Positions 2,812 to 31,012 of a stretch of DNA of 31,373 bases are shown here, piece by piece. The stretch is from a virus: positions 1 to 31,373 of IMG/VR virus record IMGVR_UViG_3300031566_000235; one strand, 5' to 3'. The position numbers and the translations under genes are program-made. The first letter of the stretch is position 1; the number at the start of each line of letters is the position of its first letter. Below the pieces are notes generated by a model. It saw only the letters and a program-made list of their open reading frames with translations. It searched no databases and was not told the origin of the DNA.

Positions 2812-3217
2812 GACAACCTCCTGTCTGTGCGCGATTGTGCGCGACTTCGGCCGCCGAAGCTAGCCGATCTCTGAGCACTAAGTAGGCCAGGCTGCTTCCT
2901 GGCTTCTTCTTGAGTTGGCGTAGCAAGTCGCAGTAGTTCGAGGGCGAGACGGGCGCCGATTGTGCCCACCCAAGCAGGCCCTCAATGTACCACTGGCACT
3001 GCCAGCGAGCTGCCCGCCTGGTGGCCACCTTCTCGATCTCGCCACGGTGCTGTGCCACGAACTCCTCTACCCGGTCAAGCCTGTACAAGCGTGCGGGTGA
3101 CGCGCTGTAGCCGTGAGGATTGGCGGCCAATTTGTCAGGATCGCCAAGTCGGTGTATCATGTTCGGCGTGAGCCCAAACAGGTTTCGTGCTGTGCTTGTG
3201 TAGATGAGTTGGCTCAT
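2786..3217 (-). CDS. Early protein with a possible N-terminal DNA-binding domain
   Basis: This is a 143-residue protein. The first 55 residues (ARNLFGLTPNMIHRLG, then RLYRLDRVEEFV) resemble the winged-helix layout of excisionase/MerR-like small DNA binders: a helix-turn-helix followed by a short wing and an arginine-rich helix. The remainder is helical and unrecognised. GGAGG precedes ATG 3217. The gene carries one copy of the 13-bp dispersed palindrome (2846-2858), read as SAAE. It sits just downstream of the repeat-rich segment 3303-3410, so it could be a regulator, an excisionase or a replication accessory. None of these is proven. Confidence 0.7.
   Translation of the reverse strand: MSQLIYTSTARNLFGLTPNMIHRLGDPDKLAANPHGYSASPARLYRLDRVEEFVAQHRGEIEKVATRRAARWQCQWYIEGLLGWAQSAPVSPSNYCDLLRQLKKKPGSSLAYLVLRDRLASAAEVAHNRAQTGGCHGQSSPCS
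2846..2858 (+). repeat. 13-bp dispersed palindrome, copy 1
   Basis: TTCGGCCGCCGAA inside the 143-residue early gene; symmetry extends to 15 bp (CTTCGG...CCGAAG). It is the only copy in the leftward left arm. Confidence 0.9.
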
Positions 3218-3234
3218 AACGTAACCTCCGTTTG

Positions 3235-3261
3235 AGCCAGGGAGTTCCCCGCTCCCTGGCT
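3235..3261 (-). promoter_or_regulatory. Leader hairpin ahead of the 143-residue early gene
   Basis: AGCCAGGGAG (3235-3244) pairs perfectly with CTCCCTGGCT (3252-3261) around a 7-nt loop. On the minus-strand transcript it lies just upstream of the GGAGG site for ATG 3217. No U-run follows it, so it is more likely an attenuator, a processing site or a partial terminator of the helicase message than a standard terminator. Confidence 0.45.
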
Positions 3262-3302
3262 TGTTCTTATCTCCAGGACAGCCATCTAAACAGCCATTTT
3301 CC

Positions 3303-3410
3303 TCGCTGTTCGTTATTCGCTATTCCCCCCTAAGGGGGGAGAATAGCGAACAGCGAAACGTTTCGCTGTCCTGTGCCATAGAATAGCGAAGAATAGCGAA
3401 ACAGCGAAAC
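3303..3410. repeat. Iteron-like repeat cluster, candidate replication origin
   Basis: GAATAGCGAA occurs at 3341-3350, 3381-3390 and 3391-3400, with its complement at 3316-3325. A related unit, CAGCGAAAC, occurs at 3351-3359 and 3402-3410. The centre is a perfect 18-bp palindrome, CAGCGAAACGTTTCGCTG (3351-3368). A larger hairpin joins 3316-3330 to 3334-3350 through C6/G6 arms. The cluster ends exactly at the stop codon of the helicase gene. Direct repeats with inverted arms next to a replicative helicase gene are typical of phage origins. An operator or terminator is the alternative. Confidence 0.5.
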
Positions 3411-4871
3411 TCAGTTCAGAGTATACAGGGTAGCGTGTCTCTTGCCCCCCTGCTCTGATTCTGTTGTTAGAACCCCCGCGGTGACCAGGTCGGTAAGCGC
3501 TGCCAGCGCTATGTTTCTACCAACCTCCTGCTCTGACTTGACCTTTTCTACCAGGTCCGACTGCGAGAGCCGGTCGCCGGTTTCGAGGGCGTCCAGGATT
3601 GTCCGTTTCGCCCTTGCGGGTTTGGAGTCGTCTACAATGGGCGTTCCGTAAAAGCGGGCACTCGTCAGTTCGCCGGTCGCGCGATCGCTGTCGTAGGTGA
3701 AGATCGCTCCGAAGGGTGCGGTGTCTTCTCCACGTGACTTCGTGGAGCGCACCTTCACTGTACTGCCCCGGTCCTCCCGCTCTACCAGCAAGGCCAGGTC
3801 AATCGCAGCCTCGATTCCACTGAAACCACGCAAGGTCTCACCCGCCCGCGTGTTGAGCCCGGTAGCCTTGCGCTGGTGGTGGATCAACACGACGGCCGCC
3901 CCGGTCTCTTCCGCCACGTACCGGAAGTTCGCCAGTACCTGAATCATCTCAGAACTGTTTTCGTCAACCCCACCGCTCACCGTCCCGAGGTTGTCTATGA
4001 CGATCAGGCCCGCAGATACCATCTTCGCGTGCTCGATTAGCCCGGCCACTGATTCTGCGTTGCTGCCGTTCAGCCAGGGCGAGGGCATCGAAACGTAGAA
4101 GAAGGGTGTGTCCGGTGCCAGGCCACGCGAGACGGCCAGGGCCTGAGTGCGCTCAGAGGTGCGTCGCTTCCCGTTATCGAAATCGCACCAGAGCACGGGG
4201 ACCATCGTTGTTCCGAATGGGGCCAGGTTCACGTCGCACGTCGGCAGTGGTTCCAGCCAGGGCAGGCCCGCTGCCACACTCATGCTCGCATCGGCCATTA
4301 GCATAGACTTCAGGCTGCCGGGTGCCCCGTACACGATGTTCAAGGACGGTAGCATGAAGATGCCAGAGATGGCATATTCCAGGGGCGGTCTCGGGGCAAA
4401 AGCATCTGTCAGGTTGCAAATCGTCCAGCCCAAGTCGTCGGACCGGACTCCCAGGGCCTCGGCCTGGGCGAGTAGCGCGCTCCTCTTGCCCTCATCGTCT
4501 ATGTAGGTGGCCTGGCCCATTAGCCTGACCTTGAGTTCCAGGGTTCGACGGTCTCTCATTCCCCTGACGATCTTGGAGTAACCGACTGCGTTCACCGCTG
4601 TAGGGCAGGCCGCTATCAGATCGAGTAGCCCAACGGCCCCTCCCACTGCTTCCAACACGTCGAGCGGCAACGTGATGGAATCTACCCCAGACCCCGCCCG
4701 AACCAGTTCCTGACCGGCTGCCCACAAACCTCTAAAGCGCATCTCGGAGAAACAATCCGGGGTGATGTTCTTGAGGTCTACGAAGATGTGCGGGTCCAAG
4801 AGGGCTGCGCCCAGTAGCGCTTCCTCCGCCTCCCGGTTGATCAGTGCTGAAGGTTGCTTTGGGTTAGCCAT
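3411..4871 (-). CDS. Replicative helicase, DnaB-N domain fused to a RepA-like RecA-fold ATPase
   Basis: This is a 486-residue protein. Residues about 8-130 match the helical DnaB N-terminal domain (INREAEEALLGAALLDP). Residues about 150-400 are a RepA/AAA_25-type RecA ATPase with Walker A GAPGSLKS (182-189), Walker B LIVIDN (289-294) and the motif VLIHHQRK (328-335). The C-terminus (about 415-486) looks like a winged helix (LSQSDLVEKV... ALTDLVTAGVL). It probably unwinds phage DNA as a hexamer at the adjacent repeat cluster. ATG 4871 overlaps the stop of the upstream zinc protein by 8 bp (ATGGCTAA), with AGGGAGG upstream. A DnaB-N front end on a RepA-like motor is less common than the two alone. 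Confidence 0.85.
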   Translation of the reverse strand: MANPKQPSALINREAEEALLGAALLDPHIFVDLKNITPDCFSEMRFRGLWAAGQELVRAGSGVDSITLPLDVLEAVGGAVGLLDLIAACPTAVNAVGYSKIVRGMRDRRTLELKVRLMGQATYIDDEGKRSALLAQAEALGVRSDDLGWTICNLTDAFAPRPPLEYAISGIFMLPSLNIVYGAPGSLKSMLMADASMSVAAGLPWLEPLPTCDVNLAPFGTTMVPVLWCDFDNGKRRTSERTQALAVSRGLAPDTPFFYVSMPSPWLNGSNAESVAGLIEHAKMVSAGLIVIDNLGTVSGGVDENSSEMIQVLANFRYVAEETGAAVVLIHHQRKATGLNTRAGETLRGFSGIEAAIDLALLVEREDRGSTVKVRSTKSRGEDTAPFGAIFTYDSDRATGELTSARFYGTPIVDDSKPARAKRTILDALETGDRLSQSDLVEKVKSEQEVGRNIALAALTDLVTAGVLTTESEQGGKRHATLYTLN

Positions 4872-5544: not shown

Positions 5545-5844
5545 TTATTCGTTTTCAGTAAGGTTCGGTCGTTCTTCTGGAGAGCACAGGCCGGCAGCAT
5601 AGTCCGTCCGATCCCGTGCCGCATAGATCGCCAGGGCTTCTGCCCCGCGCTTTGTAAGGCCGTAGCGTCCACGCCCGGTGCGGACCAGGAACCCGCCCCG
5701 TATCAGCACGTTCAACGACTTGGCAGTGGCCTGCCTCGTGCGATTGCCCAGCGCCTGTTGAATCTCTCGCAGCGACGGGCGGGGCACCGTCTGCTCGTAG
5801 TCTCTAACGTATTGCAAAATCTGAAAGCCCTTATTCGTTGCCAT
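5545..5844 (-). CDS. Winged-helix transcriptional regulator
   Basis: This 99-residue protein is almost entirely one winged-helix domain. A first helix, KGFQILQYVRDYEQ, is followed by PSLREIQQALGNRTRQATAK (helix-turn-helix) and then the wing, VLIRGGFLVRTGRGRYGLT. It resembles the LexA N-terminal domain and small phage regulators, but has no protease or dimerisation domain. AGGAGG precedes ATG 5844. A consensus promoter (5870-5898) drives it leftward, and the late promoter faces the other way. It is the best candidate in the window for the lysogeny regulator; no Xre/CI-type repressor is present. Its target could be the TGTAC boxes or the 13-bp palindrome, and the sequence cannot decide which. 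Confidence 0.8.
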   Translation of the reverse strand: MATNKGFQILQYVRDYEQTVPRPSLREIQQALGNRTRQATAKSLNVLIRGGFLVRTGRGRYGLTKRGAEALAIYAARDRTDYAAGLCSPEERPNLTENE

Positions 5845-5869
5845 CGTCTGTCCTCCTGGGTTGCTGGGG

Positions 5870-5898
5870 ATTATAGTTCATTTGTACCACTTTGTCAA
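5870..5898 (-). promoter_or_regulatory. Consensus sigma-70 promoter of the winged-helix regulator
   Basis: On the minus strand the -35 is TTGACA (5893-5898) and the -10 is TATAAT (5870-5875), both perfect consensus with exactly 17 bp between. The spacer contains TTGTACCA (5882-5889 on the plus strand), similar to the TTGTACAA at 5308, so autoregulation is possible. This is the strongest leftward promoter in the window and suits a gene expressed in the lysogen. Confidence 0.85.
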
Positions 5899-5975: not shown

Positions 5976-6004
5976 TCGACTCTGACTTGATCTTCGTTTA
6001 TAAT
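5976..6004 (+). promoter_or_regulatory. Rightward (late) promoter
   Basis: The -10 is TATAAT (5999-6004) and the -35 is TCGACT (5976-5981, four of six consensus bases) with 17-bp spacing. The predicted start, near 6011, falls in the first tandem copy of the 13-bp palindrome. A protein bound there would block initiation or early elongation. Upstream, 5932-5944 carries AGTAC twice as a small inverted repeat. No gene lies between 5845 and this promoter. Confidence 0.6.
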
Positions 6005-6010
6005 GATCCT

Positions 6011-6083
6011 AATTCGGCCGCCGAATTCACCATGAGCAAATTCGGCCGCCGAATTCACCATGAGCAAATTCGGCCGCCGAATT
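6011..6083 (+). repeat. Three tandem 28-bp repeats carrying the 13-bp palindrome (copies 2-4), candidate operator
   Basis: TTCGGCCGCCGAA occurs at 6013-6025, 6041-6053 and 6069-6081, exactly 28 bp apart. The linker between copies (TTCACCATGAGCAAA) is identical in its two occurrences. Flanking AT pairs extend the dyad to 17, 17 and 19 bp. The array starts at the predicted transcription start of the late promoter. Spacing of 28 bp is not a whole number of 10.5-bp helical turns, so successive sites lie on different faces of the DNA. The ATGs within the linkers have no ribosome binding site and are not taken as starts. Confidence 0.85.
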
Positions 6084-6186: not shown

Positions 6187-6516
6187 ATGGCAAAGAAGTC
6201 AAAGCCCAAGCCAGGCACCACAATCTATGCCGGGGGAGAAAGGCGCAAGGTCGGCCCGCGCAGTGGTACCTCCAGGCTCAAGGAGCCGAACTCAAAATCG
6301 GGCCAGTGGCTTAGCAAACTACTGCTGCGCAAGGGAACGCTTACTGCCTACGCCCGCCCACGTGGTGGAGTCGGGGCAGATGGTAAGATCAACAAGTCCT
6401 GGGCCAAGTCGGAGCAGACTAGACTTCGCGCCAAATCATCCCGCTCCAAAACAGAGCTAACAGCCTTGCGTAGGCTTAACTTGTACATCAATCGCCTGTC
6501 TAAACCTAAGAGGTAA
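6187..6516 (+). CDS. Small basic protein, unknown
   Basis: This is a 109-residue lysine/arginine/serine-rich protein starting MAKKSKPKPGTTIYAGG, likely nucleic-acid binding by charge. It is the first gene of the rightward block and ends 3 bp before the terminase small subunit gene. The start is uncertain. ATG 6187 has only a weak GGGG upstream. A GTG at 6109 would add 26 residues but sits only 2 nt from GGAGGG. An overlapping frame (6060-6314) is rejected because it lacks a ribosome binding site and has an unlikely composition. I recognise no family. Confidence 0.5.
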   Translation: MAKKSKPKPGTTIYAGGERRKVGPRSGTSRLKEPNSKSGQWLSKLLLRKGTLTAYARPRGGVGADGKINKSWAKSEQTRLRAKSSRSKTELTALRRLNLYINRLSKPKR

Positions 6517-6519
6517 GCC

Positions 6520-7008: not shown

Positions 7009-7392
7009 TGCGCGCCTGTGGCATGGGTTAGCGATCCTGCCCTTCCAGAGTCGGCGCGCAAGAGACAGTGGTCTTGTGCGCGCCGGGGCATTAGAGCACC
7101 TTACTCAGTTGAGGCTTAGGCGCGCAAGCTATTGGCCCGAAAGAGCATTGGCAGGGCGGCGGGCGTCACTCTGTTGTGGGGGCAGCACTCTCTCAAGGAG
7201 CGGGTGCACGGAGAGGGGGTGCCCCGATCGTCGTAGCAGGCTAGCGGTCACAGTTGGTCTTGTGCGCGCCGTGTCGTAAAGGCACCTCACTCAGTTCAAG
7301 CACAGGCGCGCAGCTCTCACACTTAAGGGAGCATTGGCAGGGCAGTAGGCGGCTCGGTGTAGTGGGGGCAGGACATTCACAAGGGGCGGGTG
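7009..7392 (+). repeat. Repeated stem-loops and 186-bp imperfect duplication
   Basis: Three copies of an 8-bp arm TGCGCGCC face GGCGCGCA across loops of 36, 34 and 34 nt (7009-7016/7053-7060, 7077-7084/7119-7126, 7263-7270/7305-7312). The last two lie in two longer copies whose landmarks are all offset by 186 bp. Examples are GGTCTTGTGCGCGCC at 7070 and 7256, and CGGGTG at 7201 and 7387. GAGCATTGGCAGGGC recurs in both copies. The loop sequences differ while the arms are exact, which suggests selection on the stem. Confidence 0.7.
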
Positions 7393-7435: not shown

Positions 7436-7448
7436 TTCGGCGGCCGAA
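7436..7448 (-). repeat. 13-bp dispersed palindrome, copy 5
   Basis: TTCGGCGGCCGAA (complement orientation) in the non-coding segment between the two terminase genes. Confidence 0.9.
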
Positions 7449-7845: not shown

Positions 7846-9240
7846 ATGGCCCGATGGCCTACCGTAGCACAGAAGGCACACACCTTCCAGCAGGTGGGTT
7901 ACAAGCCCAGCGAGGTGCAGTGGCCGATCCATCAGAGCGGGGCGCAGGTGCTTCTCATTGCTGGTGGAGAGCGGTCGGGCAAGAGCAGAAGTTCGGCGGC
8001 CGAAGTATTAGCTCGAACGCCGTGGTGTCACCGGTCCGGCCAGGTTGCGGTAGTCGCGCAAGAGTACGATCAGAGCCGCTCTGAGTGCGAATATTTAATT
8101 GGAGACTTCGAGAAGCTAGGGTTGCTGACGGGCACACCTTCCCTGCCCAAGCAGGGCACGTGGTCGTGGGACGTTATCAAGGGCACCATTGGATTTGAGA
8201 CCATCTCCCTAAGCCGGGCAGGGGTGAGGGAGCTCACGGGGCGGGGCAAGGCCTACGACATTGTGTTAATTTGCGAGTCGGGTTTGGTCAGCTACGACAC
8301 CCTCCTGGGGGCACTTGGTAGGGTATCGGAGACACGGGGCCTGATCATCCTATCGGGGACGTTGTGGGATAACCACGGGTGGTACGCTGAGCTTTACAAG
8401 TCATTCGAGGGGCCGAACATTTTCAACGGGGCGGTGTTCGCACTCCCGACGTGGGCGAACCTGGCAGTGTACCCTGGTGGCGAGGACGATCCCGAGATCA
8501 AGCGCCTGCGGGACACCCTTCCTGCCGATGACTTCTCCAGGCGGGTAGCAGCTCAGCTGGTGCCAAGTCCGGCCAGGATCTATCCTGAGTTCGAGTGCAC
8601 GACGCACGTTAAGCAGATCGAGTACGATCCCGAGCAGCCGGTGTACCTGGCAGTGGACCCTGGCTATCGCCCAAGCCGCTACGCGATCCTTGCCCTGCAG
8701 ATCGTGACCGATGGCACGATGGAGATCGTGAACCAGATAGACGAGATCTGGGAGCACGACAAGACTCATCACGACGTCATTGAGATGTGCCGGGCACGTA
8801 ACTGGTGGCACGGTGTAACGCAGGCCATCGGCGGGCACGAGACTAAGCAACACCAGGCAGCAGCCAGCACAGCAGAGGTGTGGCGCAACCTGGTGGGGAC
8901 AGTAGAGAACGACCCGGAGGACTTTAGCTTCACGACATTCAATGCGGGTCGGGTCTTAGACGGGATCGTGAGGGTCAAGACATTCCTGTCCGATCCTGCC
9001 CTGAAGGTACCGCGGTACTACTGCGCACCTGGTTGCACTGGCACTCAGCAGGAGTTCCAGGTTTACAAGCGCAGGACTGACAGCAAGGGCGGGGTGGCCA
9101 GTGAAGAGCCACAGGACAAAGACAACGACGCGATGGATGCGTTGCGCAACTTTCTGGTTCAGCGATACGGGCTGGTAGAGAAGGCGATTAAGTATGGCGT
9201 ATTCAAGCCAGGCAAGAGACGGGGCATGAAGTGGGGATAG
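7846..9240 (+). CDS. terL: Terminase large subunit
   Basis: This is a 464-residue packaging motor. The N-terminal ATPase has Walker A GGERSGKS (40-47) and Walker B IVLICE with the catalytic Glu at 144. The C-terminal RNase H-like nuclease has Asp271 in YLAVDPGYR, and a late acidic motif, DNDAMDAL (about 434-441). It pumps DNA into the prohead through the portal and cuts the concatemer. I chose ATG 7846, although the frame is open back to 7648, because GAGAAGGGG lies just before it, the start fits the family, and the upstream stretch is repeat DNA. A copy of the 13-bp palindrome (7992-8004) encodes SAAE at residues 50-53, right after Walker A. Confidence 0.92.
   Translation: MARWPTVAQKAHTFQQVGYKPSEVQWPIHQSGAQVLLIAGGERSGKSRSSAAEVLARTPWCHRSGQVAVVAQEYDQSRSECEYLIGDFEKLGLLTGTPSLPKQGTWSWDVIKGTIGFETISLSRAGVRELTGRGKAYDIVLICESGLVSYDTLLGALGRVSETRGLIILSGTLWDNHGWYAELYKSFEGPNIFNGAVFALPTWANLAVYPGGEDDPEIKRLRDTLPADDFSRRVAAQLVPSPARIYPEFECTTHVKQIEYDPEQPVYLAVDPGYRPSRYAILALQIVTDGTMEIVNQIDEIWEHDKTHHDVIEMCRARNWWHGVTQAIGGHETKQHQAAASTAEVWRNLVGTVENDPEDFSFTTFNAGRVLDGIVRVKTFLSDPALKVPRYYCAPGCTGTQQEFQVYKRRTDSKGGVASEEPQDKDNDAMDALRNFLVQRYGLVEKAIKYGVFKPGKRRGMKWG
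7992..8004 (-). repeat. 13-bp dispersed palindrome, copy 6
   Basis: TTCGGCGGCCGAA inside terL, read in frame as Ser-Ala-Ala-Glu immediately after the Walker A motif. Confidence 0.9.
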
Positions 9241-9243: not shown

Positions 9244-9256
9244 TTCGGCCGCCGAA
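9244..9256 (+). repeat. 13-bp dispersed palindrome, copy 7
   Basis: TTCGGCCGCCGAA in the 36-bp gap between the terminase stop (9240) and the portal start (9277). Symmetry extends to 17 bp (AATTCGG...CCGAATT), as in the tandem operator array. Confidence 0.9.
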
Positions 9257-12184: not shown

Positions 12185-15100
12185 ATGCCCAGTCTCGCTG
12201 ATGTAAGGTTACACGAGCAAGAGGAAGCCAAGAAGAAGGCAGCGGTCAAGGCTGGCAAGCAGAAGCCTGAGTGGTGGCGTGAGCCTGCCCCCACTCCTGC
12301 CCCTCGGCCGGCGCCTGTTGCCCCATCCTTTGGGGTACCGCCCGCAGTCGTAGAGGCTGCCAGGCGTGGTGTTGCTCCGCCTGTCAACCCGTTTGCAGCG
12401 CAGGCAGCTGCCGCCCCTTCGCGTCCCCCGGGGCTTGCCTCTCCTCCTCTTGTTGTGAGGCCAACAGTCCCTGGCTGGCGCGACGCCGGCGCAGCGCAGC
12501 GGGCAGTTGCATCTGCCGTCCCCCCGTGGCAGCAGATGCTGCCGATATTGCCGAATGCGTATCCCCCAGAGGTTCTCGGGTGGCTGAAAGAGCACGCACC
12601 AGTAGGCGCGGTGCAGTACACGTACGAGCGCATCCAGGACATCTTGCAGAGGGCAGGTGAGCCAGTAGCAGGGCCTGGGCTAGCTGAGACAGCGGCAAGG
12701 GGCACAGGTCCGGCACGGCCTGGGCGACCGATGAGTTTCGCAGAGATGATGGCCCCGCCTGCCATGCTGGCACAGACACTAAGCCCAGAAGAGGCACCGA
12801 GGGCTCAACCATCGTTCGGTGTGCCACCAGGGGTAGTCAGCGAAACGCCCTCTGAGGCGGTAGAGCGAATCGTGGGAGGGGCGTACGGGCGGGCCTGGGA
12901 GATGCCCGGCGCGGTGTGGCGGGACGTCAAGAGAAGTCCTGTAACAGGTGGAGTCGCGCGCGGCGCGGAGACGGCAGTGAAGATGGCCCTGGAGGCGGCT
13001 CAGGTCCCGGTACGGGTAGTAGAGGAGTCCGTGGGCACGCTCACACAGAGGGCCCCTGGCAAGCACGGGGTCATACCCCTTGCCCCAACCCAACACATGA
13101 CCGAGGAGCAAGAGGCACAGAGCGCGGCGATCGCTGAGTCAGCAGGCCTCGGGTGGCATCCTGGTGCGAGGTGGGCGATCTCTCAGGGAGTACTGGCAGC
13201 GGCCCGGCTGGGTGCGTCCTCCATCAACGAGTACGTGGCGACGACCTACGGGAACACGCCTCAATCCCAGGCTGCTGTACGGCAGGCCAGGATGCTAGGG
13301 TTCAGTTCCTACGAGGCGCAACGCGAGGCAGTTGACCGGCTGATGGCCGGTGAGTCTCTGAGCACCGTAGTGGATGGCCGCGACGTGATGCTGTACCCGC
13401 CCAAGCCAGAAGATGCTACCCCTGCCGAGTTGCAGCGCTGGCAGCAGGACAAGGCAGCGGCAGATGCGTACCTGGCCGGGGTAGAGGCGCGTGGTGAAGA
13501 CAGAACTTCGGCGGCCGAAGAAATTCAGCGGACAGGGCGCATCCCTCAGAGCGCCGATCTGTGGAACGAGGTGATAGGGCAGTTCGGGCTAGACCCGGTC
13601 AACTACATTCAGGGGCTGAAGGCGTGCCAGAAGGTGAGAGAAGCACGTGCCGCAGCCCTTGCCAAGTACGGCGGTGACACTTCCGAGGTAGAGGCCATTG
13701 TAAAGGCAACAGCGGCAGCAGAGGTCCAGGCGCTTGACGACTTTGGCAAGCAGGTCACGCTGGTTGACGATGCTGTTAAAGAGGCAGACGATCTACCCGA
13801 TGCGCTGAAGGCTGTTCGGGAAGGCCCTCCTAGCGAGGCTCCCTGGTGGGAGAGCAAGCTGCAAGCCACTCAGGGAAGTCCTAGCGAACTGGTCTGGCAG
13901 CAAGCCACTCAGGGACCCCCGGGCGGAACTCCACTGGTGTCTGCTGAGGAGCTGGCCCAGCGCGCCGGAGATGCGGCTTACCTGGAAGACCAGCGGCGTG
14001 CTGCGACGGTTCTGGAAGCCAGAGACAAGGCAGCATCGGCTACTTATGCTGTGACCCAGGCTGCTGACGAAGGGCCGCGCGGGAACAGCATAGTAGACCG
14101 GATGAGGAACTGGCTAGACACCAATAGTCCTATTGCTCGCACCCCGCGTGCCAGGGCGGCCAAGGCTGCTAACCAGACCGTCCAGATATTTGGCACGCTG
14201 CTTGAGGGGGTAGACAGCCCAGACGAAGCAGCGGAGATTGTGCACCGCTTCATCACCGCTCCTGAAACACTGGTGTCCCACGGTGGCGGTCTGGCGATCA
14301 GTGGGGCTGCTGACGAAGTGAGGCCACTGCTAGCGCCGCTAGCTGATGTGCTTGATGACCCGGACTTCTACTCAGAGGAGGTGTTTACCCTGCCGGAGTA
14401 CCTGGCGAACCTGGCAACCGAGGTGAGCTACCAAAGCCTGCAAGCACAGGGGGTGGGAGCCGCGGAACTGTCAGGTTGGCAGAAGTGGGTACAAACGGTC
14501 AAGCAGTTCATGGGCAACCTCTACTTGACCAGTCCCGGCTACGCGATCCGCAACTGGCAAGGCGACATGTTCACGATGAGCGTGGATGGGACGGTCTCTC
14601 TTGTCAGTCGTGGTACGATTGACCGCGGCCTCGCGCGACTGGGTACAGTGACACCCCGTATAGGGGGTGAGGCAGCCGGGCAGATGCAACTGGTCGAGGG
14701 GCTAGACGATGCTAACAACTGGGTTTCCAAGACGTGGGGCCAATGGAAAGACTTCATAGGCAGAGGTGAGGAATCGCGCTATCGCCGGGCTTTCTACACT
14801 GCCTTCGAGGCGGGCCTGGATTGGGCACCCAAGATACCAGACGATGTTGCCAGGCTGATGGACCCTGATACGGTCAAGGCAGCAGAGGCTGGGCTGGCAG
14901 GGTGTCGCAACTTTGATGAGATGGTTGATGTAGTATCAAAGTTGGAGGGCTTGTCACCCGAGGCTACTGCTGCGCTGGACGTCTGGGCGCAAGGTGGGGT
15001 GCTTTCACGTGGGTGGTCAACTGCCCGCGCAGTAGCGGTCAGAGTGGCGCAGGCGGCGGCCGACTTTTCGCTGCTGGACTATATAGCAGACGAGACTTAC

Positions 15101-18073
15101 ATTGATTCCTTCCTGAAGGGCGTCAGTCCCTTCTCTTACTGGCTGACGCACAGTGCGGCCAACTGGCTCAAGCGGATCGCCGCGCGCCCTGGAGCACTGA
15201 CTGCCTACGTTAAGCTGAACAAAGCACTGGAGCTCGTCAATCAGGAGAGCGGGCTACCTGCCAAGTACGCTGGCTCGGTTGGGATTCCGGGTACGGATAT
15301 AAGGCTTCACCCGCTGGAGACGATAGTACCATTCCAGGCGGTGTTCTTCCAGAAGAAGTACCAAAGGGAAAACAAGAACCTGGTTGACGAACTGTTCCAG
15401 GCTGCCAGCGATGTTGGGCTGCGAGCCTTCCCGTTCATCGAACTGCCCCTACGGCTCACAGGAGTAGTGGGAGAGCCAGAGGAGATTGGCCGCTTTGCTC
15501 CACAGACTGGGGTGGTCTTGGCGATCACCGCCCTCTTGGGCATTGGCGGGCCACAGGGCATAGACCTGGAAGGCCCGATCAGGCAGCAACTTGGGATGCT
15601 CCCAGGTGGTGTCAGGGATCTCGCCGGGATGCTCCCAGGGGCTAACAGAGAGAGGATTGAGGCACAAGTGCTTCCAGGGGTTACACTGCCCGCTGGTGAG
15701 GGATTCCAGGCCAACCGCATTGATAACATGCTGGCGGCTGGGGCTGCCTTGAATCCAACGAAGGTGCAGCCCACGCTCATTGCGCAGGACCTCAACCGGC
15801 GAGCGCACGCAGGAGAGTTCTCTCTCAACACTGCGATGGGGGTCTTTGGCTCGCAGGACAAGATAGAGGCGCTGGCGAGAGAGCAGGGGTGGACTACATC
15901 ACAGTTGGAGGAAGCGCAGACAGTACTTCGTGATGGGGTACGGCTGGCGCAGATCAGCAGAGGGCTTCAGACGCTAACCTCGTATGGGCTGGGTCTTAGA
16001 GCCACCGTGCTAACGAAGGGAGAGCGAGAACAACTTGCGCTGGCCCAGGAGAAGCGGGCAACGATGTATGCCCCACTGACAGAGCAGGGAAGTAAAGAGG
16101 CGCTTCAGGCTCTCCAGCTAACCCATCCTGAGATGGGGCCATACGGGGTGAGGGGCTCTACCCTGCCAGGGGCCAGCCCAGAAGACCGTACTCCTGCTGA
16201 GCAGTGGCAGTGGAACGAGTACAGCCGGCGCGGTGACGAGATTCGGCGCGGGACTCAGACCAGGCTCGATGCTATCAGGCGGGGGACGCCCTGGGACAAC
16301 GAAGCAAGCCAGGCATTGTATGACCAGCAGAACGCCGATCTGGCGGCACTGCGGGTCGAGCTACACATTCCTGAGACAGGCGAGGTATTCCTGAGCTCGG
16401 TCTACGGTGCCAGCCCGGAGGAAGTACAGGCTATCCGGCGCAAGGACGTGTTGGCCGCTGTGAAGGCAGGGAGACCGAAGGCGGGCGACTTCATTGGGGC
16501 GGATGGTACGCCAGACTGGCCCCGGTACTACGAAGCGGTAGACGGCTACTGGGCCAACCTGACTGCCAGCATGAGGGAAGACCCGAAGATCGTGGCGGCA
16601 GCACAGGACTTGAGCAAGCGGACGGGGCAACTGGTCACTCCAGACAGCCTGTTGGCGGGGGTAGACCTGGCAGCCTACGAGGAGTACCAGAGGCAATACG
16701 ACAGCCCCACTGAGGCGGCGCTGAATGTCTGGGACACGAAGGTATCCGGTCCTGCCTGGGATGCATTCAATGCAGCACAGGCCCGTGGGGAGAAGGGTGC
16801 CCACGAGCGGTACATTGCGCCCATCCAGGAGATGCCTGCTGTTGATCTGATCGGGCAGATACAGGCCCTCTACCCTGGCCGGTGGACAGACAGGGAACTT
16901 GGTGTTGCCCTGCGGGATATGGAGATTCCGTCAGCAGCAACCATGTCCCTGAAGAAGAAGTCCCCGGAGGAGCAGGTGCTCTCTCAGGCGTCCAGCGGGT
17001 TCTGGGACCTCTACAACATTCAGATACCGCCAGGCGAACTGAGTTGGGAAGTACGAGAGATCCCGTCCGTGGCTGCCATTCTGGCCACAGAGGACAAGTC
17101 TACGATTCCCCTGGCGGAATACCAGAAGGCACAAAGGGACTTGGAGCTCTGGAAGCAGCAGAACGAGAACCCAGACTGGGGCTCACCGGAAGACTGGGCA
17201 GAAGCGCGGCGGCTAGATGATGAGTTTGAAATTTCGGCCGCCGAAAAGATCCCTGGGCTGGAAGGGATCATGGAAGCCTACAAGGCTATCCCTTACGAGG
17301 ATACCGCCGCCCGGGCAGCGTACAGAGTGGCGCACCCTCAGATAGACCAGCATGCTGACCTACAGATCGAGTTTGGGCTTGAGCCCGAGAACAAGCTCTG
17401 GGCTTATTACAACCTGGGGGGTGATGCGTTCTGGCAGTACTGGAACGAAGAGCTCCCGCCCGGCCAGATGATCTCAGACTTGAAGGACGATCCCTTGATA
17501 GCGCTTCTGCTGAATCCAGAGTCTAGGGAAACCGCCACCCCAGACCAGTGGCTTATGGGGCTGGAGATGGCGCGGAACTGGGGAGAGAAGAACTACACAG
17601 AAAAGTGGGGTACGCCAGAGGACTGGGCAGAGGCAAGAGCACAGGACGAAGAGTTCAAGACTTCGGCCGCCGAAACTATCCCTGGCTACGAAGCGATCCT
17701 GGCAGGGTACTATGACCTCCCCCCTGCATCTGCCGAGCGCCGGGCCTACAAGGCAGCGCATCCTGAAATAGGCCAGTACTTCGATGCGCAGGATGCCTTT
17801 GCTGCCACTCACGAACTGTGGGCTTATTACTACAAGGGCGGGCAGATGGGCACGTCATCCCTGGGCACGAACTACAGGTCGTCCGGGGGCAAGCGGTACT
17901 ACAAGCGTCGTGGTGGCGGTACGTATGCCCCCAACTTTGCGTACCAGGCGAAGAAGACGCCCAAGGTGTTCCTGGACACACCGCTGGCCTGGAAGAGCAC
18001 AATGCCAAAGCTGGAATACAGGTACCGGCCCACACCCCAGTGGAAGCTCGGGGCGAAGGCTTTGGGGTTGTAA
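12185..18073 (+). CDS. Giant 1962-residue virion-block protein, probably internal or ejected
   Basis: At 5.9 kb this is the largest gene, 19% of the phage. Its parts are as follows. Residues 1-220 are Pro/Ala-rich and disordered, with PSFGVPP at about 48 and 209. Residues 220-650 are helical and charged. Residues 650-1100 contain YLTSPGYAIRNWQGDM (about 780) and PFSYWLTHSAANWLKRIAARPG (about 980), which resemble phrases in large polyvalent/ejected phage proteins. A hydrophobic stretch, TGVVLAITALLGIGG, lies at about 1113. Two tandem 143-residue modules (about 1600-1885) share FW..., PEDWAEAR, SAAE.IPG and LWAYY. The end is basic and aromatic. It replaces a tape measure in position and size but lacks long coiled coils. 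I infer a podovirus-type internal protein delivered with the DNA. No enzyme motif was seen. Confidence 0.7.
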   Translation: MPSLADVRLHEQEEAKKKAAVKAGKQKPEWWREPAPTPAPRPAPVAPSFGVPPAVVEAARRGVAPPVNPFAAQAAAAPSRPPGLASPPLVVRPTVPGWRDAGAAQRAVASAVPPWQQMLPILPNAYPPEVLGWLKEHAPVGAVQYTYERIQDILQRAGEPVAGPGLAETAARGTGPARPGRPMSFAEMMAPPAMLAQTLSPEEAPRAQPSFGVPPGVVSETPSEAVERIVGGAYGRAWEMPGAVWRDVKRSPVTGGVARGAETAVKMALEAAQVPVRVVEESVGTLTQRAPGKHGVIPLAPTQHMTEEQEAQSAAIAESAGLGWHPGARWAISQGVLAAARLGASSINEYVATTYGNTPQSQAAVRQARMLGFSSYEAQREAVDRLMAGESLSTVVDGRDVMLYPPKPEDATPAELQRWQQDKAAADAYLAGVEARGEDRTSAAEEIQRTGRIPQSADLWNEVIGQFGLDPVNYIQGLKACQKVREARAAALAKYGGDTSEVEAIVKATAAAEVQALDDFGKQVTLVDDAVKEADDLPDALKAVREGPPSEAPWWESKLQATQGSPSELVWQQATQGPPGGTPLVSAEELAQRAGDAAYLEDQRRAATVLEARDKAASATYAVTQAADEGPRGNSIVDRMRNWLDTNSPIARTPRARAAKAANQTVQIFGTLLEGVDSPDEAAEIVHRFITAPETLVSHGGGLAISGAADEVRPLLAPLADVLDDPDFYSEEVFTLPEYLANLATEVSYQSLQAQGVGAAELSGWQKWVQTVKQFMGNLYLTSPGYAIRNWQGDMFTMSVDGTVSLVSRGTIDRGLARLGTVTPRIGGEAAGQMQLVEGLDDANNWVSKTWGQWKDFIGRGEESRYRRAFYTAFEAGLDWAPKIPDDVARLMDPDTVKAAEAGLAGCRNFDEMVDVVSKLEGLSPEATAALDVWAQGGVLSRGWSTARAVAVRVAQAAADFSLLDYIADETYIDSFLKGVSPFSYWLTHSAANWLKRIAARPGALTAYVKLNKALELVNQESGLPAKYAGSVGIPGTDIRLHPLETIVPFQAVFFQKKYQRENKNLVDELFQAASDVGLRAFPFIELPLRLTGVVGEPEEIGRFAPQTGVVLAITALLGIGGPQGIDLEGPIRQQLGMLPGGVRDLAGMLPGANRERIEAQVLPGVTLPAGEGFQANRIDNMLAAGAALNPTKVQPTLIAQDLNRRAHAGEFSLNTAMGVFGSQDKIEALAREQGWTTSQLEEAQTVLRDGVRLAQISRGLQTLTSYGLGLRATVLTKGEREQLALAQEKRATMYAPLTEQGSKEALQALQLTHPEMGPYGVRGSTLPGASPEDRTPAEQWQWNEYSRRGDEIRRGTQTRLDAIRRGTPWDNEASQALYDQQNADLAALRVELHIPETGEVFLSSVYGASPEEVQAIRRKDVLAAVKAGRPKAGDFIGADGTPDWPRYYEAVDGYWANLTASMREDPKIVAAAQDLSKRTGQLVTPDSLLAGVDLAAYEEYQRQYDSPTEAALNVWDTKVSGPAWDAFNAAQARGEKGAHERYIAPIQEMPAVDLIGQIQALYPGRWTDRELGVALRDMEIPSAATMSLKKKSPEEQVLSQASSGFWDLYNIQIPPGELSWEVREIPSVAAILATEDKSTIPLAEYQKAQRDLELWKQQNENPDWGSPEDWAEARRLDDEFEISAAEKIPGLEGIMEAYKAIPYEDTAARAAYRVAHPQIDQHADLQIEFGLEPENKLWAYYNLGGDAFWQYWNEELPPGQMISDLKDDPLIALLLNPESRETATPDQWLMGLEMARNWGEKNYTEKWGTPEDWAEARAQDEEFKTSAAETIPGYEAILAGYYDLPPASAERRAYKAAHPEIGQYFDAQDAFAATHELWAYYYKGGQMGTSSLGTNYRSSGGKRYYKRRGGGTYAPNFAYQAKKTPKVFLDTPLAWKSTMPKLEYRYRPTPQWKLGAKALGL
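13507..13519 (-). repeat. 13-bp dispersed palindrome, copy 8
   Basis: TTCGGCGGCCGAA in the giant gene, read as SAAE (residues about 441-444); symmetry extends to 15 bp. Confidence 0.9.
17233..17245 (+). repeat. 13-bp dispersed palindrome, copy 9
   Basis: TTCGGCCGCCGAA in the first C-terminal module of the giant protein, read as SAAE; symmetry extends to 15 bp. Confidence 0.9.
17662..17674 (+). repeat. 13-bp dispersed palindrome, copy 10
   Basis: TTCGGCCGCCGAA at the equivalent place in the second C-terminal module, exactly 429 bp (143 codons) after copy 9, again read as SAAE. The flanking codons have diverged while the 13 bases are identical. Confidence 0.9.
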
Positions 18074-18079
18074 ACTGAC

Positions 18080-18121
18080 CCCCTTGTAATCATTGATAGA
18101 CACTTAGCAAGGGGTTATAAT
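18080..18121 (+). promoter_or_regulatory. Strong internal promoter for scaffold and capsid, with overlapping inverted repeat
   Basis: The -35 is TTGATA (18093-18098) and the -10 is TATAAT (18116-18121) with 17-bp spacing, close to consensus. An inverted repeat, CCCCTTG (18080-18086) and CAAGGGG (18108-18114), brackets the -35 and fills the spacer, so a dimeric regulator could sit on the promoter. It lies in the gap after the giant gene and would give extra transcript of the proteins needed in most copies. Confidence 0.7.
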
Positions 18122-18179
18122 GAAGATCAGCAGGGGCCAGGTCCCTGCCAGACTTAACAAGCAACAGGAGGATTCCACC

Positions 18180-20466: not shown

Positions 20467-21648
20467 ATGCCTATTAGCATAACCGCATTCGTAAAAACTC
20501 TGGCAGGAACGGCCGCCTACTCCAGTCATCTGCTACGCGCTATTGGGCCTTTGGGCTACTTGGCCCGGAGCCCCGACTTCGCTATAGACGTGGTGGGTAG
20601 GGATGAAGTTCTAGCGGCCGGCAAGGCAGCGGACGCGCTTCTGGACAAGGACCTCTGCCTGTTCGCACGGCAGTTCAGCAGGACACGAAACCAGGCAATC
20701 GTGAACAAGGTACACGAGCTTGGCGGCCAAGTCGTGTTCGACTGTGACGACGATCTGACCGGAAGGTACCATCCCAACTGGTCAGGCGACAAGTTTATCG
20801 AGATGCTTGGGCTGGCAGACTGCGTGACGGTGGCCACACCTGGCCTGGCCTCTGCCCTGGCCGAGTACACCAAGCACGAGCCAATCGTGCTGCCGAACTA
20901 CATTGTCCTGCCCTGGTTTGCTCAGGAGAGTGTAGAAACCGAGCGAGTGTTTTCTGCCGATACAATCACAGTGGGGCTGGTGGGAACGCATAATCACTGG
21001 CGGGGCGACTGGCAACCTGTGATAGAGGCTCTGGGCAGGCTGGCCCGAGACTACCCCAACGTCCAACCTGTCATAGCCAGTGGCTGGGTATCAGCAGAAG
21101 TACGCCAGGCTATCCCGCGCTTGGCAGTGATAAAGCCGGTATCCTACGCTGCATACCCTGGCCTGGTACGCCAGTTTGACATCGTGTGCTGCTGCCTTGA
21201 CCCAGACGACCGGTTCAACCAGGGCAAGTCCTCGATAAAGGCATTGGAAAGCATGGCAGCGGCCAGGCAGCTAGTCGCCGGCCTGGTGGGCGGGGCGGTA
21301 CCCGTGTGCACGGACATGCCACCCTACCGGGATATAGTCAACGGGCGCAACGGCCTGCTTGTTTCCAACGACCAGTGGTACGACGCGCTCACCCTGTTGG
21401 TACGAGACCGGCGCCTGCGCCATCGGCTGGGCGCGGATGGGCTTGAGTGGGTAACAGAGCACGGGAACATGAAACGTGAGGCCCATCGGTGGGGCGACGT
21501 CTACAAAGAACTTCTGGCGGGGCAGCTGCCCCGGAAACCTAGAGAGACTGTAATCGTAGCTCCAATTCGGCCGCCGAAGTTTCGGCTGGCGGCCTGGTTG
21601 TGGGCAACAGTTAGGAGGATCGCACATGGCACTAAAGACACGAAGTGA
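20467..21648 (+). CDS. GT-B fold glycosyltransferase (GT4-like) in the virion block
   Basis: This is a 393-residue protein. The N-terminal half has VVFDCDDDL (89-97), a phrase common in phage and bacterial GT-B glycosyltransferases, and LADCVTVATPGLASAL. The C-terminal half has NQGKSSIKALESMAA (251-265), GGAVPVCTD and NGRNGLLV, the usual nucleotide-sugar-binding layout of GT4 enzymes. It would transfer a sugar from a nucleotide donor; the acceptor is unknown. AAGGA precedes ATG 20467. It follows the capsid terminator and overlaps the next gene by 23 bp, so it is locked into the virion operon. Virion or cell-surface glycosylation are the two plausible roles. Palindrome copy 11 is near its 3' end. 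Confidence 0.8.
   Translation: MPISITAFVKTLAGTAAYSSHLLRAIGPLGYLARSPDFAIDVVGRDEVLAAGKAADALLDKDLCLFARQFSRTRNQAIVNKVHELGGQVVFDCDDDLTGRYHPNWSGDKFIEMLGLADCVTVATPGLASALAEYTKHEPIVLPNYIVLPWFAQESVETERVFSADTITVGLVGTHNHWRGDWQPVIEALGRLARDYPNVQPVIASGWVSAEVRQAIPRLAVIKPVSYAAYPGLVRQFDIVCCCLDPDDRFNQGKSSIKALESMAAARQLVAGLVGGAVPVCTDMPPYRDIVNGRNGLLVSNDQWYDALTLLVRDRRLRHRLGADGLEWVTEHGNMKREAHRWGDVYKELLAGQLPRKPRETVIVAPIRPPKFRLAAWLWATVRRIAHGTKDTK
21566..21578 (+). repeat. 13-bp dispersed palindrome, copy 11
   Basis: TTCGGCCGCCGAA near the end of the glycosyltransferase gene. This is the one coding copy not read as SAAE; it encodes IRPPK. Confidence 0.9.
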
Positions 21649-28513: not shown

Positions 28514-28530
28514 TTTCGATGGTGGCATAG

Positions 28531-29121
28531 ATGGTAACACCATGGAGCACACAGCCCGGGCCGACGATGCCCTTCTTCGATCCGTATAGCCTGACCCTGA
28601 ACGGGCAGCCAACGTATGCCGGGTGCGGACCAGTGGCTCTTGGCATGATCACAGGGGCCTACCACAACCAGGTGCCCGCCTGGCAGGCTCTCTCTCCCCA
28701 AGGGCTGATCGACGCCAACGCCGGTCTGTTCACGGAGCGAGGGATTGGGATCCACCAGTTTGACGACGATCTGCGGGCTGCCAGGTACAGCCCGCGCACT
28801 TATATGGGCACGGACTGGGAGACACTACAGACCGTGGTCAACCAGGGGCCTGCAGTAGCCTACGTTGAGTGGGAATGGAAGCCGGGCAACGCGGCACACG
28901 GGGTAGTGGTCACGGGCGCCAACGATAAAGAAGTACACGTTGCCGACCCCGGGACAGGCACAGAGTACGTGGTGCCTACGCCCCAGTTCCAGCAGAGTTG
29001 GAAGTCACAGGGAAACGTACTGTACGGGGTCGAGCCGTTCTGGAAGTTAGCCAAGGGGAAGCAGGAAAAGGGGGCGCCCTCTCCTCCTCCCTGGAAGGTA
29101 GAACGTAAGCAAGGGCGGTAG
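28531..29121 (+). CDS. C39-like cysteine peptidase, probable lysis enzyme
   Basis: This is a 196-residue protein. Cys32 lies in PTYAGCGPVALGM, His123 in AAHGVVVTGAN and Asp139 in VHVADPGTG. This is the Cys-His-Asp set of C39-like papain-fold peptidases, which occur in phage endolysins and virion enzymes. It most likely cuts peptide bridges in the host cell wall. It has no signal peptide and no separate wall-binding domain, but ends in a basic tail (KVERKQGR). The start, ATG 28531, has a weak GGTGG upstream. The gene is directly ahead of a holin-like gene, which supports the lysis role. A C39-type maturation protease is the alternative. Confidence 0.75.
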   Translation: MVTPWSTQPGPTMPFFDPYSLTLNGQPTYAGCGPVALGMITGAYHNQVPAWQALSPQGLIDANAGLFTERGIGIHQFDDDLRAARYSPRTYMGTDWETLQTVVNQGPAVAYVEWEWKPGNAAHGVVVTGANDKEVHVADPGTGTEYVVPTPQFQQSWKSQGNVLYGVEPFWKLAKGKQEKGAPSPPPWKVERKQGR

Positions 29122-29123
29122 AT

Positions 29124-29136
29124 TTCGGCCGCCGAA
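29124..29136 (+). repeat. 13-bp dispersed palindrome, copy 13
   Basis: TTCGGCCGCCGAA in the 39-bp gap between the peptidase stop (29121) and the holin-like gene (29161). Confidence 0.9.
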
Positions 29137-29160
29137 CTTTAGAGGGAAAGGAGGGAACAC

Positions 29161-29349
29161 ATGGGTGAAATGAACCTGGTGAACATCCTGACGGTTGGGG
29201 GGCCAGTGGCCGGCATTGCGATCCTGAGCATCTGGCTGAACCACAAGCTGGTGACTCAGTGGATCGCTCAGATCGAGGGCACATTGCAGGACCTGGCCCA
29301 GCAGATGGGGCAGGTTACCGAAGCACTGAGGCACCTCAACGGGAAATGA
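29161..29349 (+). CDS. Holin-like small membrane protein
   Basis: This is a 62-residue protein with one predicted transmembrane helix (VNILTVGGPVAGIAILSIWL, about residues 7-26). A short amphipathic coiled region follows (IEGTLQDLAQQMGQVTEAL). The size, single helix and position after the peptidase fit a class III-like holin or a similar lysis membrane factor. AAAGGAGGG precedes ATG 29161. It is the last gene of the rightward block. Confidence 0.65.
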   Translation: MGEMNLVNILTVGGPVAGIAILSIWLNHKLVTQWIAQIEGTLQDLAQQMGQVTEALRHLNGK

Positions 29350-29370
29350 CGCGAGCAGAAGCGGTAGAAG

Positions 29371-29383
29371 TTCGGCCGCCGAA
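29371..29383 (+). repeat. 13-bp dispersed palindrome, copy 14
   Basis: TTCGGCCGCCGAA in the 46-bp convergent gap between the holin-like stop (29349) and the HNH gene stop (29396). No classic terminator is seen in this gap. Confidence 0.9.
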
Positions 29384-29395
29384 GTTCAGACGGGG

Positions 29396-29890
29396 TTACT
29401 CGATATGCCTCCAGTGTGTTCTGTGGGTGATCTGGCAGGCAGTGGTAGGGGTGATGCCAAACCGCACAGCAAGTTGCCTGTATTTCCAACCTGCCTGACG
29501 GAGCTGCCTGATCTCGCGAACCTGGTCTTCGGTGAGCTTGGCGTTCCCGTTCTGGCTGCCCTTGGCAGAGCGTCCTCGCTCTGCCCTGTCGCGCATGTTG
29601 TCGGTGTGGGTGCCCAGGTACAGATGAGCAGGGTTGACGCAGGGTGGGTTGTCGCAGGTATGGCAGACACACATGCCCTCTGGGACCTCCTGCTTATGAT
29701 GCAGTTCCCAAGCTACCCGATGGGCAAGCATCTGAAGCGGCTCCCTGACGGTGTATTGGCCATACCCCTTTCTGATGTGGTGCCCCTGCCACTCCCAGCA
29801 GTCGTCTGGGCCACGCTCATCCACGAATGACCAGAAGCGGATAAGTGTGCTGGTATGGCACTTGTTGTGGACGCGGCGGCGTTTGGCCAA
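29396..29890 (-). CDS. HNH endonuclease with C-terminal helix-turn-helix
   Basis: This is a 164-residue protein. The HNH core is LAHRVAWELHH, then CVCHTCDNPPCVNPAHLYLG (about residues 75-94), with paired Cys for zinc and the H-N-H residues present. Residues about 115-164 (LTEDQVREIRQLRQAGWKYR, then LAVRFGITPTTACQITHR) form a helix-turn-helix that would set sequence specificity, as in free-standing phage homing-type HNH enzymes. I chose a TTG start at 29890 because AAGGAGG (29897-29903) precedes it by 6 nt; the open frame upstream to 30013 is inside the next gene. It may be a selfish nuclease, or may aid packaging cuts as in HK97-like phages. Confidence 0.82.
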   Translation of the reverse strand: MAKRRRVHNKCHTSTLIRFWSFVDERGPDDCWEWQGHHIRKGYGQYTVREPLQMLAHRVAWELHHKQEVPEGMCVCHTCDNPPCVNPAHLYLGTHTDNMRDRAERGRSAKGSQNGNAKLTEDQVREIRQLRQAGWKYRQLAVRFGITPTTACQITHRTHWRHIE

Positions 29891-29946
29891 TAGAGTCCTC
29901 CTTCTTGCTAGAGATAAGAAGTCTTGGCGTAGCCAGTCAGTCCAGC

Positions 29947-30264
29947 CTACTTCGCTGCGTCCAGCTTGGCCATGAGCGTGAGCGATTGGGGCGCTGTTGG
30001 CCAGCCATCCCACTGGGCAGCCAGTTGGGCCAGCGTAGCAAAGTCAGCGTCCTCCAGCGCAACGTCGAACTCAAGGTCTGCCTTCTCGACAGTGACCATC
30101 CCGTCATCAGCGGGGTGCCAGCCTGCTTCCTTCTGCTCGTCTTCCTTGATCCGTAGGGCCTCCATGATGCGCAGGTAGATCGCCACCTGGTTCAGTGGCC
30201 CGGACTGCGGGATTGCGCGGAGCAAGAACATGCGTTCAATGACACTCAGCTTCAGGTTTTTCAT
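29947..30264 (-). CDS. Small conserved-type phage protein, unknown
   Basis: This is a 105-residue protein starting MKNLKLSVIERMFLLRAIPQ. The short N-terminal strand-helix (SVIERMFLLRAIP) and a C-terminal acidic part are like a widespread class of small phage proteins with no known role. ATG 30264 is chosen because AAGGAGAAAGG precedes it; an upstream in-frame start at 30384 overlaps the next gene and lacks a site. It lies between two HNH genes in the same leftward run. Confidence 0.7.
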   Translation of the reverse strand: MKNLKLSVIERMFLLRAIPQSGPLNQVAIYLRIMEALRIKEDEQKEAGWHPADDGMVTVEKADLEFDVALEDADFATLAQLAAQWDGWPTAPQSLTLMAKLDAAK

Positions 30265-30305
30265 AAACCTTTCTCCTTGTTCGGCATACGAACTCCTGTG
30301 GACTT

Positions 30306-30950
30306 CTATGTCCAGTCTGCCCAGTAAGACTCTGGCCGATAGTCTATGTACCGGCCCTGCTTCCGGCCGTTGCACCCGCCGCAAAGCGGCTGGATGTTGT
30401 CGATGTAGTCGCTCCCGCCTAACACAAGTGGAACCACGTGATCTTGCTGTATATGTTCAGTGGCCCCACAGGCCAGACAACGAGAGCCGTACCGCGCCAG
30501 TACCGCAAGCCATTCCCCCGTCGTGTGCCTGCCCTCAGCTCCTAGTTTCCTGGCGTGCCTGTGGGCGTTGCGTACTCTGGCAGTCTCGCGATCCTGCTCG
30601 TAGTGTTCTGCCCGCCACTTCTTCTTAGCCTGGCGTATCTCTGCGGCGTGTTCCTGCCTGTACTTGCGGGCGTACTGATCGAGTTGCTCACGGTGTTGCT
30701 CTCTGTACCTGACCCTGTAGGCCCGCATGTAGGCTCGGCGTTGCTCGCGGCGCTCAGCCTGGCAGACTTGGGCGTAGACCCGCTTGTGCCCTCTGTGCTC
30801 TGCATACCATTGCCTGCTGTGAGCATTTTGGCATTGCTTGCACCAGTAGTAAAGGCCACTCTTGCTGTGCCTATCGGTCGAGAACTCGCTCAGGGGCTTT
30901 TCCTCACCACACTTCGTGCACCTTTTGGTCGTCTCTGCCGTTGTAGTCAC
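30306..30950 (-). CDS. HNH endonuclease with N-terminal zinc ribbon
   Basis: This is a 214-residue protein. Residues 11-41 are a zinc ribbon (CTKCGEEKPLSEF ... CKQCQN). Residues 45-140 are a long basic helix rich in Arg, Glu and Gln. The C-terminal domain is an HNH nuclease: CLACGATEHIQQDHVVPLVL, GGSDYIDNIQPLCGGCNGRK. The DH...N...H/C pattern is complete. The frame starts with GTG at 30950, just ahead of the first zinc cysteines. No ribosome binding site precedes it, but a possible promoter places transcription start at or next to this GTG, so the message may be leaderless. It is the gene nearest attR. Confidence 0.82.
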   Translation of the reverse strand: MTTTAETTKRCTKCGEEKPLSEFSTDRHSKSGLYYWCKQCQNAHSRQWYAEHRGHKRVYAQVCQAERREQRRAYMRAYRVRYREQHREQLDQYARKYRQEHAAEIRQAKKKWRAEHYEQDRETARVRNAHRHARKLGAEGRHTTGEWLAVLARYGSRCLACGATEHIQQDHVVPLVLGGSDYIDNIQPLCGGCNGRKQGRYIDYRPESYWADWT

Positions 30951-30953
30951 GGC

Positions 30954-30981
30954 AGTATCGTACCAGATTGTCAGTTGTCAG
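30954..30981 (-). promoter_or_regulatory. Possible promoter of the right-end HNH cluster
   Basis: On the minus strand the -35 is CTGACA (30976-30981) and the -10 is GATACT (30954-30959) with a 16-bp spacer. The start would fall at about the GTG of the HNH gene. CTGACA is repeated at 30969-30974. This would let the cluster be expressed from the prophage independently of the integrase. Confidence 0.35.
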
Positions 30982-30999
30982 GTGAGAAGCTACGGTAAT

Positions 31000-31012
31000 T
31001 TCGGCGGCCGAA
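31000..31012 (-). repeat. 13-bp dispersed palindrome, copy 15
   Basis: TTCGGCGGCCGAA 43 bp from attR; symmetry extends to 17 bp (ATTTCGG...CCGAAAT). In the circular phage it lies one base past the stop codon of the integrase (31014-31016). Confidence 0.9.

Follow-up and report, generated by a model that had tools for sequence, protein, structure and literature searches.

What does a short DNA element do when it is repeated, without change, along a prophage? The question is raised by IMG/VR record IMGVR_UViG_3300031566_000235, a virus contig that consists of an integrated prophage with short host DNA at both ends and whose full 31,373 bp are referred to here as the window. The window holds 15 exact copies of the 13-mer TTCGGCCGCCGAA. 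All 15 coordinates given in an earlier sequence-only reading proved exact, and its expectation of far fewer than one copy by chance agrees with the 0 copies found in 100 dinucleotide shuffles and the 0.002 copies expected under a second-order Markov model. When 1–2 mismatches were allowed over the whole window no variant was found, save the same sites read on the opposite strand, where the central base flips between C and G; the set is all-or-none. On the sequence evidence assembled here it is fairly probable that the 13-mers serve a genome-wide phage repressor as its operators, a reading that takes its direct support from the sites, their conservation at the DNA level, their phage specificity and their placement at a promoter. 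The sites are as follows.

2846–2858, plus strand: site 1, in the leftward replication/ribbon-helix-helix/integrase operon, 35 bp upstream of a conserved open reading frame (ORF, 2566–2811); one-sided flank
6013–6081, plus strand: sites 2–4, a tandem array of three copies with a 28-bp period, starting 8 bp past the -10 hexamer of the rightward promoter
7436–7448, minus strand: site 5, in noncoding DNA that separates the small from the large terminase gene; the sister phage has no orthologue
7992–8004, minus strand: site 6, within the large terminase gene right after the P-loop; TCG GCG GCC GAA, encoding SAAE
9244–9256, plus strand: site 7, at the terminase/portal junction
13507–13519, minus strand: site 8, within the gene for a 1962-aa protein
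17233–17245, plus strand: site 9, within the 1962-aa gene, in a duplicated stretch
17662–17674, plus strand: site 10, within the 1962-aa gene, in the second copy of the duplicated stretch; kept in the sister phage
21566–21578, plus strand: site 11, near the end of a glycosyltransferase gene, 60 bp ahead of the next start codon
25369–25381, minus strand: site 12, near the end of the gene for a 985-aa protein
29124–29136, plus strand: site 13, at the junction of a C39-like peptidase gene and a holin-sized ORF
29371–29383, plus strand: site 14, right after the holin-sized ORF (29161–29349)
31000–31012, minus strand: site 15, 46 bp from the attR core and upstream of an HNH gene that reads leftward

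Sites are present in leftward and rightward transcription units alike, and they lie both in gene junctions and inside genes, as had been noted before (6 of 15 are intragenic in the window, and 6 of 11 in the sister phage). The duplicated stretch (17220–17850) is an internal duplication close to the end of the 1962-aa protein; it covers ~143 codons, and each copy has one site (17233 and 17662).

The two arms of the 13-mer, TTCGGC and GCCGAA, form a perfect dyad with a single C or G at its centre. It had been described as a near-palindrome in both orientations, which is right in that the central base differs, but orientation merely reflects this C or G because the outer bases form a perfect dyad and the centre flips freely between orthologous sites. 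When the exact sites of the window and its sister phage were pooled, an A was found at position -2 from the core in 26 of 26, and a T at position +2 in 14 of 26. The two phages have 14 noncoding sites between them and 11 of these show both bases, which indicates that the 13-mer is the invariant core of a longer, 17-bp dyad, ANTTCGGCSGCCGAANT. The excess of A(-2) over T(+2), 26 against only 14 on the plus strand, is what would be expected if the site were a polar element that is read along the genome and not along transcription, for instance a replication-priming, strand-specific or packaging-direction signal, and the one-sided site at 2846 does oppose the local direction of transcription. Such an element is nevertheless quite improbable, as almost every one-sided site is coding, with a frame that makes A(-2) cheap and T(+2) costly, and several of them form orthologous pairs. 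Most noncoding sites are symmetric and just three are one-sided, so that the excess is at most a possible polarity.

The sister phage was found by a search with the major capsid protein and is represented by a contig of 31,304 bp with a capsid protein 92% identical to that of the window. It is integrated in the same host gene as the window prophage, and a second metagenome carries it too, identical across 12.8 kb. The sister phage has 11 exact 13-mers and 1 copy with one change. Seven of its sites are orthologous to sites in the window, and at these all 84 of the 84 outer bases compared (12 per site) are identical, although the flanking DNA has clearly diverged. At five of the seven the two phages differ in the central base, C against G, the terminase site being an example (7992 in the window, 8070 in the sister), and this base is never A or T. 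This flip is expected for a two-fold symmetric binder, because C:G and G:C are the same site seen from opposite sides. Across the two phages 10 of the 12 intragenic sites are in the frame TCG GCS GCC GAA, which encodes Ser-Ala-Ala-Glu, and all five Ser-Ala-Ala-Glu peptides in the late proteins of the window are encoded by the motif, where codon usage predicts less than 1% for each. A distant relative (L016) retains the Ser-Ala-Ala-Glu after the terminase P-loop and spells it TCC GCG GCC GAG. Third codon positions within the coding sites shared by sister and window, the centre excluded, are conserved in 20 of 20 cases, whereas conserved residues elsewhere give a background of 70.8% (P about 0.001 for the difference), and this argues that selection at the sites acts on the DNA and not on the protein.

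A repeat that the prophage has simply picked up from its host, such as a HIP1-like iterated repeat or an uptake sequence, might look similar in its density of ~1 per 2 kb and in its intragenic sites, and a HIP1-like host repeat had been put forward as an alternative. It did not survive comparison with related genomes. In the eight Chloroflexota genomes where the host gene has its closest relatives, 34 Mb in all, the exact 13-mer occurs once, and it occurs 0–3 times per genome in 400 further Chloroflexota, where a reversed-pattern control gave counts of a similar order; the density in all 408 genomes is thus at chance level, and no copy was found in ten prophage regions with a related terminase. 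As far as the related genomes allow, a host-wide repeat is ruled out, and we regard it as extremely improbable. The absence of the 13-mer from the host flank, which had been noted earlier, is correct but by itself uninformative, because only ~0.35 copies would be expected there at the density of the prophage. Searches for more members of the family were likewise negative: an integrase search found the sister phage alone, closely spaced site pairs were absent from the other viral contigs searched and, among the matches listed for the 17-bp pattern in viral contigs, only two contigs of the sister phage have more than one site. The ten regions that share a related terminase showed no analogous dispersed motif, the sole exception being host REP-like repeats in one of them.

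More distant elements have repeats of their own. One relative of 38.5 kb (G006; L026/L027) has a dispersed intergenic element, GTCAACGGATNGGGAAACGGATAAACGGATA, with AACGGAT units at about 7 places, nearly all on one strand and mostly directly ahead of gene starts. Fragments of distant relatives (L017, L018, and L019) carry five to eight CCTCAGCCTTAACCT-like repeats, and in G125 (L125/L126) REP-like repeats, CGCCGGAATGACGGA ... ACTGGATTCCGGC, are dispersed around a related prophage and are probably host repeats.

The array is placed at a promoter. Of two divergent promoters here, the rightward one drives the rightward operon.

5976–6004, plus strand: rightward promoter, TCGACT-17-TATAAT, conserved in the sister phage (TATAAT at 6413)
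5870–5898, minus strand: promoter of the winged-helix gene, TTGACA-17-TATAAT, a 12/12 match to consensus, without a 13-mer

The three copies of the array occupy +1 to +70 of the rightward promoter, and the sister phage has a single site in the same place (6437). A site at a lytic promoter together with sites elsewhere in the prophage is a feature of dispersed operator sets of the kind formed by SPBRE (see below), and it is found here. The late transcript, in which a gene for a small basic protein comes first, carries the three copies in its 5′ leader, and the element could instead act in RNA, as a hairpin of 5–6 bp (UUCGG-CSG-CCGAA) bound by a phage RNA-binding protein, for example in antitermination or translational control. 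A palindrome folds alike from either strand and orientation is therefore no argument for exclusion. However, the hairpin has little stability (-3.8 to -6.8 kcal/mol) and gives way to other folds in some of its natural contexts, no compensatory or G-U variants occur among the 26 sites, save in one near-site, and there is no Rfam match, which together make an RNA element very improbable. Intrinsic termination was also considered and rejected; the site has a terminator-like score in two places, with no proper T-run.

Pfam and PHROG scans of most window genes yielded two candidate regulators only.

1932–2135, minus strand: ribbon-helix-helix (Arc-like) protein of 67 aa, candidate binder, adjoining the integrase gene; PHROG 6506, 8.6e-7
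5545–5844, minus strand: winged-helix protein of 99 aa, a candidate repressor with a DNA-binding domain of LexA type; its gene diverges from the rightward promoter

The same scans revealed no repressor of the L5 gp71 type (HTH plus Stoperator domain). The ribbon-helix-helix protein is 50% identical to that of the sister phage over its length, with the strand residues kept, and its AlphaFold core (pLDDT 86–92) has weak fold matches that include Arc, CopG, AmrZ, and MatP. The winged-helix protein matches Pfam LexA_DNA_bind at 0.0015 in the window and at 9e-6 in the sister, and its predicted structure has a wing and a C-terminal helix. The winged-helix proteins of the two phages are 27–28% identical, and their recognition helices differ at every aligned exposed position. 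Because these helices differ while the sites are identical, the ribbon-helix-helix protein is slightly favoured as the putative binder. A third candidate is the small basic protein (6187–6516) encoded by the first late-transcript gene after the array, which is 76% identical in the sister phage over the aligned part.

The spacing of the sites in the late region raises another explanation. The intervals there are 4263, 3726 (4155 via 17662), 3904, 3803, and 3755 bp, irrespective of gene borders, in line with the 3.7–4.3 kb given by the sequence-only reading, and the regularity has a P of about 1e-5 to 3e-5 in a test that was picked after seeing the data. A near-regular spacing of ~3.8 kb that ignores gene borders, together with intragenic sites under selection at the DNA level, might be taken to mean that a phage protein bridges, condenses or holds the genome for packaging or partition, in the manner of MatP, and that repression is secondary. 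The matS site of Escherichia coli is likewise 13 bp long and is repeated 23 times (PMC3330122). The window element shares with it a 13-bp palindromic site, and the ribbon-helix-helix protein has MatP–matS structures among its weak fold matches. MatP has a ribbon-helix-helix domain. The window system may thus be compatible with matS/MatP in site size, dyad and predicted fold of the ribbon-helix-helix candidate, and in these respects only; matS sites are chromosomal, are found across 800 kb and have no promoter–operator role, and MatP is larger, with extra domains. Furthermore, three copies crowded at a promoter resemble an operator, neither ParA/ParB nor a MatP-like coiled coil was found, and an integrating phage has no need for partition in the lysogen. 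The regularity was spotted post hoc and the two phages share ancestry. DNA organisation is therefore unlikely, though it ranks first among the rivals, ahead of the polar element and then the RNA hairpin.

How does the element compare with known dispersed operators? The parallel proposed earlier was with the stoperators of mycobacteriophage L5. These, like the stoperators of other cluster A phages, are 13-bp sites of which a temperate genome has more than 20, some at a promoter but the majority elsewhere, and their repressor is thought to block elongation; L5 sites are asymmetric and oriented with transcription (PMC9283540; PMC6550527). The parallel holds for the 13-bp size, the dispersal, the copy number (15 in the window, 11 in the sister) and the presence of sites both at a promoter and away from it. 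It fails for symmetry and location. L5 stoperators are bound by a monomer, vary from copy to copy and are confined to short intergenic gaps, whereas the window site is an invariant, perfect dyad that has a flipping centre, opposes transcription at 2846 and also occurs within genes. Because symmetry and location differ in this way, the comparison indicates that the system is not a member of the L5 family. A second relevant case is SPBRE of the Bacillus prophage SPbeta, a repeated 15-bp element that is the proven binding site of the master repressor MrpR (PMC10516654). The likeness is that of a dispersed repeated element in a prophage with a serine recombinase, but SPBRE sites sit in promoter regions and MrpR has the tyrosine-recombinase fold, which was not recognised in the window. 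The temperate phage phiC31 has a serine integrase and near-identical inverted repeats that are spread through its genome as repressor sites; these are described as intergenic, and their sequence and site length differ from those of the window dyad.

Dispersed operators of a phage repressor thus offer the best explanation of the 13-mers. We infer a protein binder, silencing, and either a roadblock or a bridging step. A phage-encoded dimeric DNA-binding protein would occupy the 17-bp dyads, much as repressors occupy the L5 stoperators or SPBRE. By sitting on the start of the rightward promoter, which in the window has three copies, it would prevent transcription of the late operon from initiating or from getting past early elongation. 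Occupancy along both operons, long genes included, would leave no gap larger than about 4.3 kb, and protein bound at these dispersed sites would stop the elongation of transcripts begun at stray or internal start points, or link one site to another by bridging. Either way, the outcome would be a silent prophage and immunity to relatives. It is tempting to go further and suppose that the ribbon-helix-helix protein folds or bridges the prophage into a silent unit via 17-bp dyads at ~4-kb intervals maintained by synonymous selection, an architecture that goes beyond the occupation of promoters; as a specific proposal this is rather unlikely.

Several observations weigh against a genome-wide repressor. 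First, all 26 sites are exact, a strictness not seen in L5, where sites vary from copy to copy, and intragenic sites are unusual for repressor operators. Second, a site is missing where one might be looked for: the second conserved phage promoter (TTGATA-17-TATAAT, 18093–18121, before the scaffold/capsid genes) has none, and the winged-helix and ribbon-helix-helix genes both have promoters of their own without a site. Third, relatives of the ribbon-helix-helix protein are found near related integrases in other Chloroflexota elements that lack the motif, and some of these share the strand residues, one of them directly beside a related integrase. The ribbon-helix-helix protein may therefore serve the integrase instead, and because relatives occur without the motif the case for it as the binder is modest, with its conserved T-x-R strand residues counting for less than they otherwise would.

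The remaining features concern the prophage and its host.

429–440, plus strand: attL core, CCAGTTCTTCCT, within the host symporter gene
31058–31069, plus strand: attR core, CCAGTTCTTCCT; the host reading frame resumes past the core
416–1966, minus strand: serine integrase gene; Pfam Resolvase 2.3e-27, PHROG integrase 7.2e-88

The host flank extends over 1–428 and about 31070–31373 and is identified as host DNA because both ends hold halves of one gene, for a GPH/MelB-type sugar:cation symporter, which is split by the prophage at the common CCAGTTCTTCCT; the gene starts left from 340 and resumes to the right from about 31,070. As the nearest chromosomal relatives of the symporter, 78–79% identical, are of the Anaerolineae type, the host is probably an unsequenced Anaerolineae-type member of the Chloroflexota. 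Besides the serine integrase, the Pfam and PHROG scans identified genes for a DnaB-like helicase, a large terminase subunit, a P22-type portal, a GP7-type major capsid protein, an SU10-type adaptor, tail proteins and HNH nucleases. A search of the GenBank phage collection with the prophage gave no match.

In another Chloroflexota genome (G027; L274, 7605–9867) a related serine integrase has the same ribbon-helix-helix neighbour, which suggests that the two form a conserved pair, perhaps an integrase with its directionality or control factor. At 18070–18125 the scaffold/capsid promoter, a strong one that the sister phage also has, is overlapped by an inverted repeat, CCCTTG-N21-CAAGGG, which co-varies in the sister phage (CTCTTG/CAAGAG) and is possibly an operator for another regulator, for example the winged-helix protein. 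Two direct repeats spaced 186 bp apart (7069–7392), in the noncoding DNA where the small terminase gene ends and the large one has yet to start, mark a candidate cos or pac region. The host flank has three 74-bp repeats (100–321), each with two paired palindromes, CGCTGGACAACAGTCCAGCG and CGGCGGACTGTGGTCCGCCG, and these repeats also border the sister prophage (L109).

Few cases of genome-wide silencing of a phage by dispersed sites have been studied. The present case adds a set of invariant, symmetric sites, some of them inside genes, with a clear signature of synonymous selection, in a group of Chloroflexota phages without relatives in the phage collection searched. If the sites are repressor operators, the system would provide a clean test of whether repressor sites in coding DNA act as roadblocks to elongation or as bridging points, and the conserved dyad would serve as a ready probe for the repressor.

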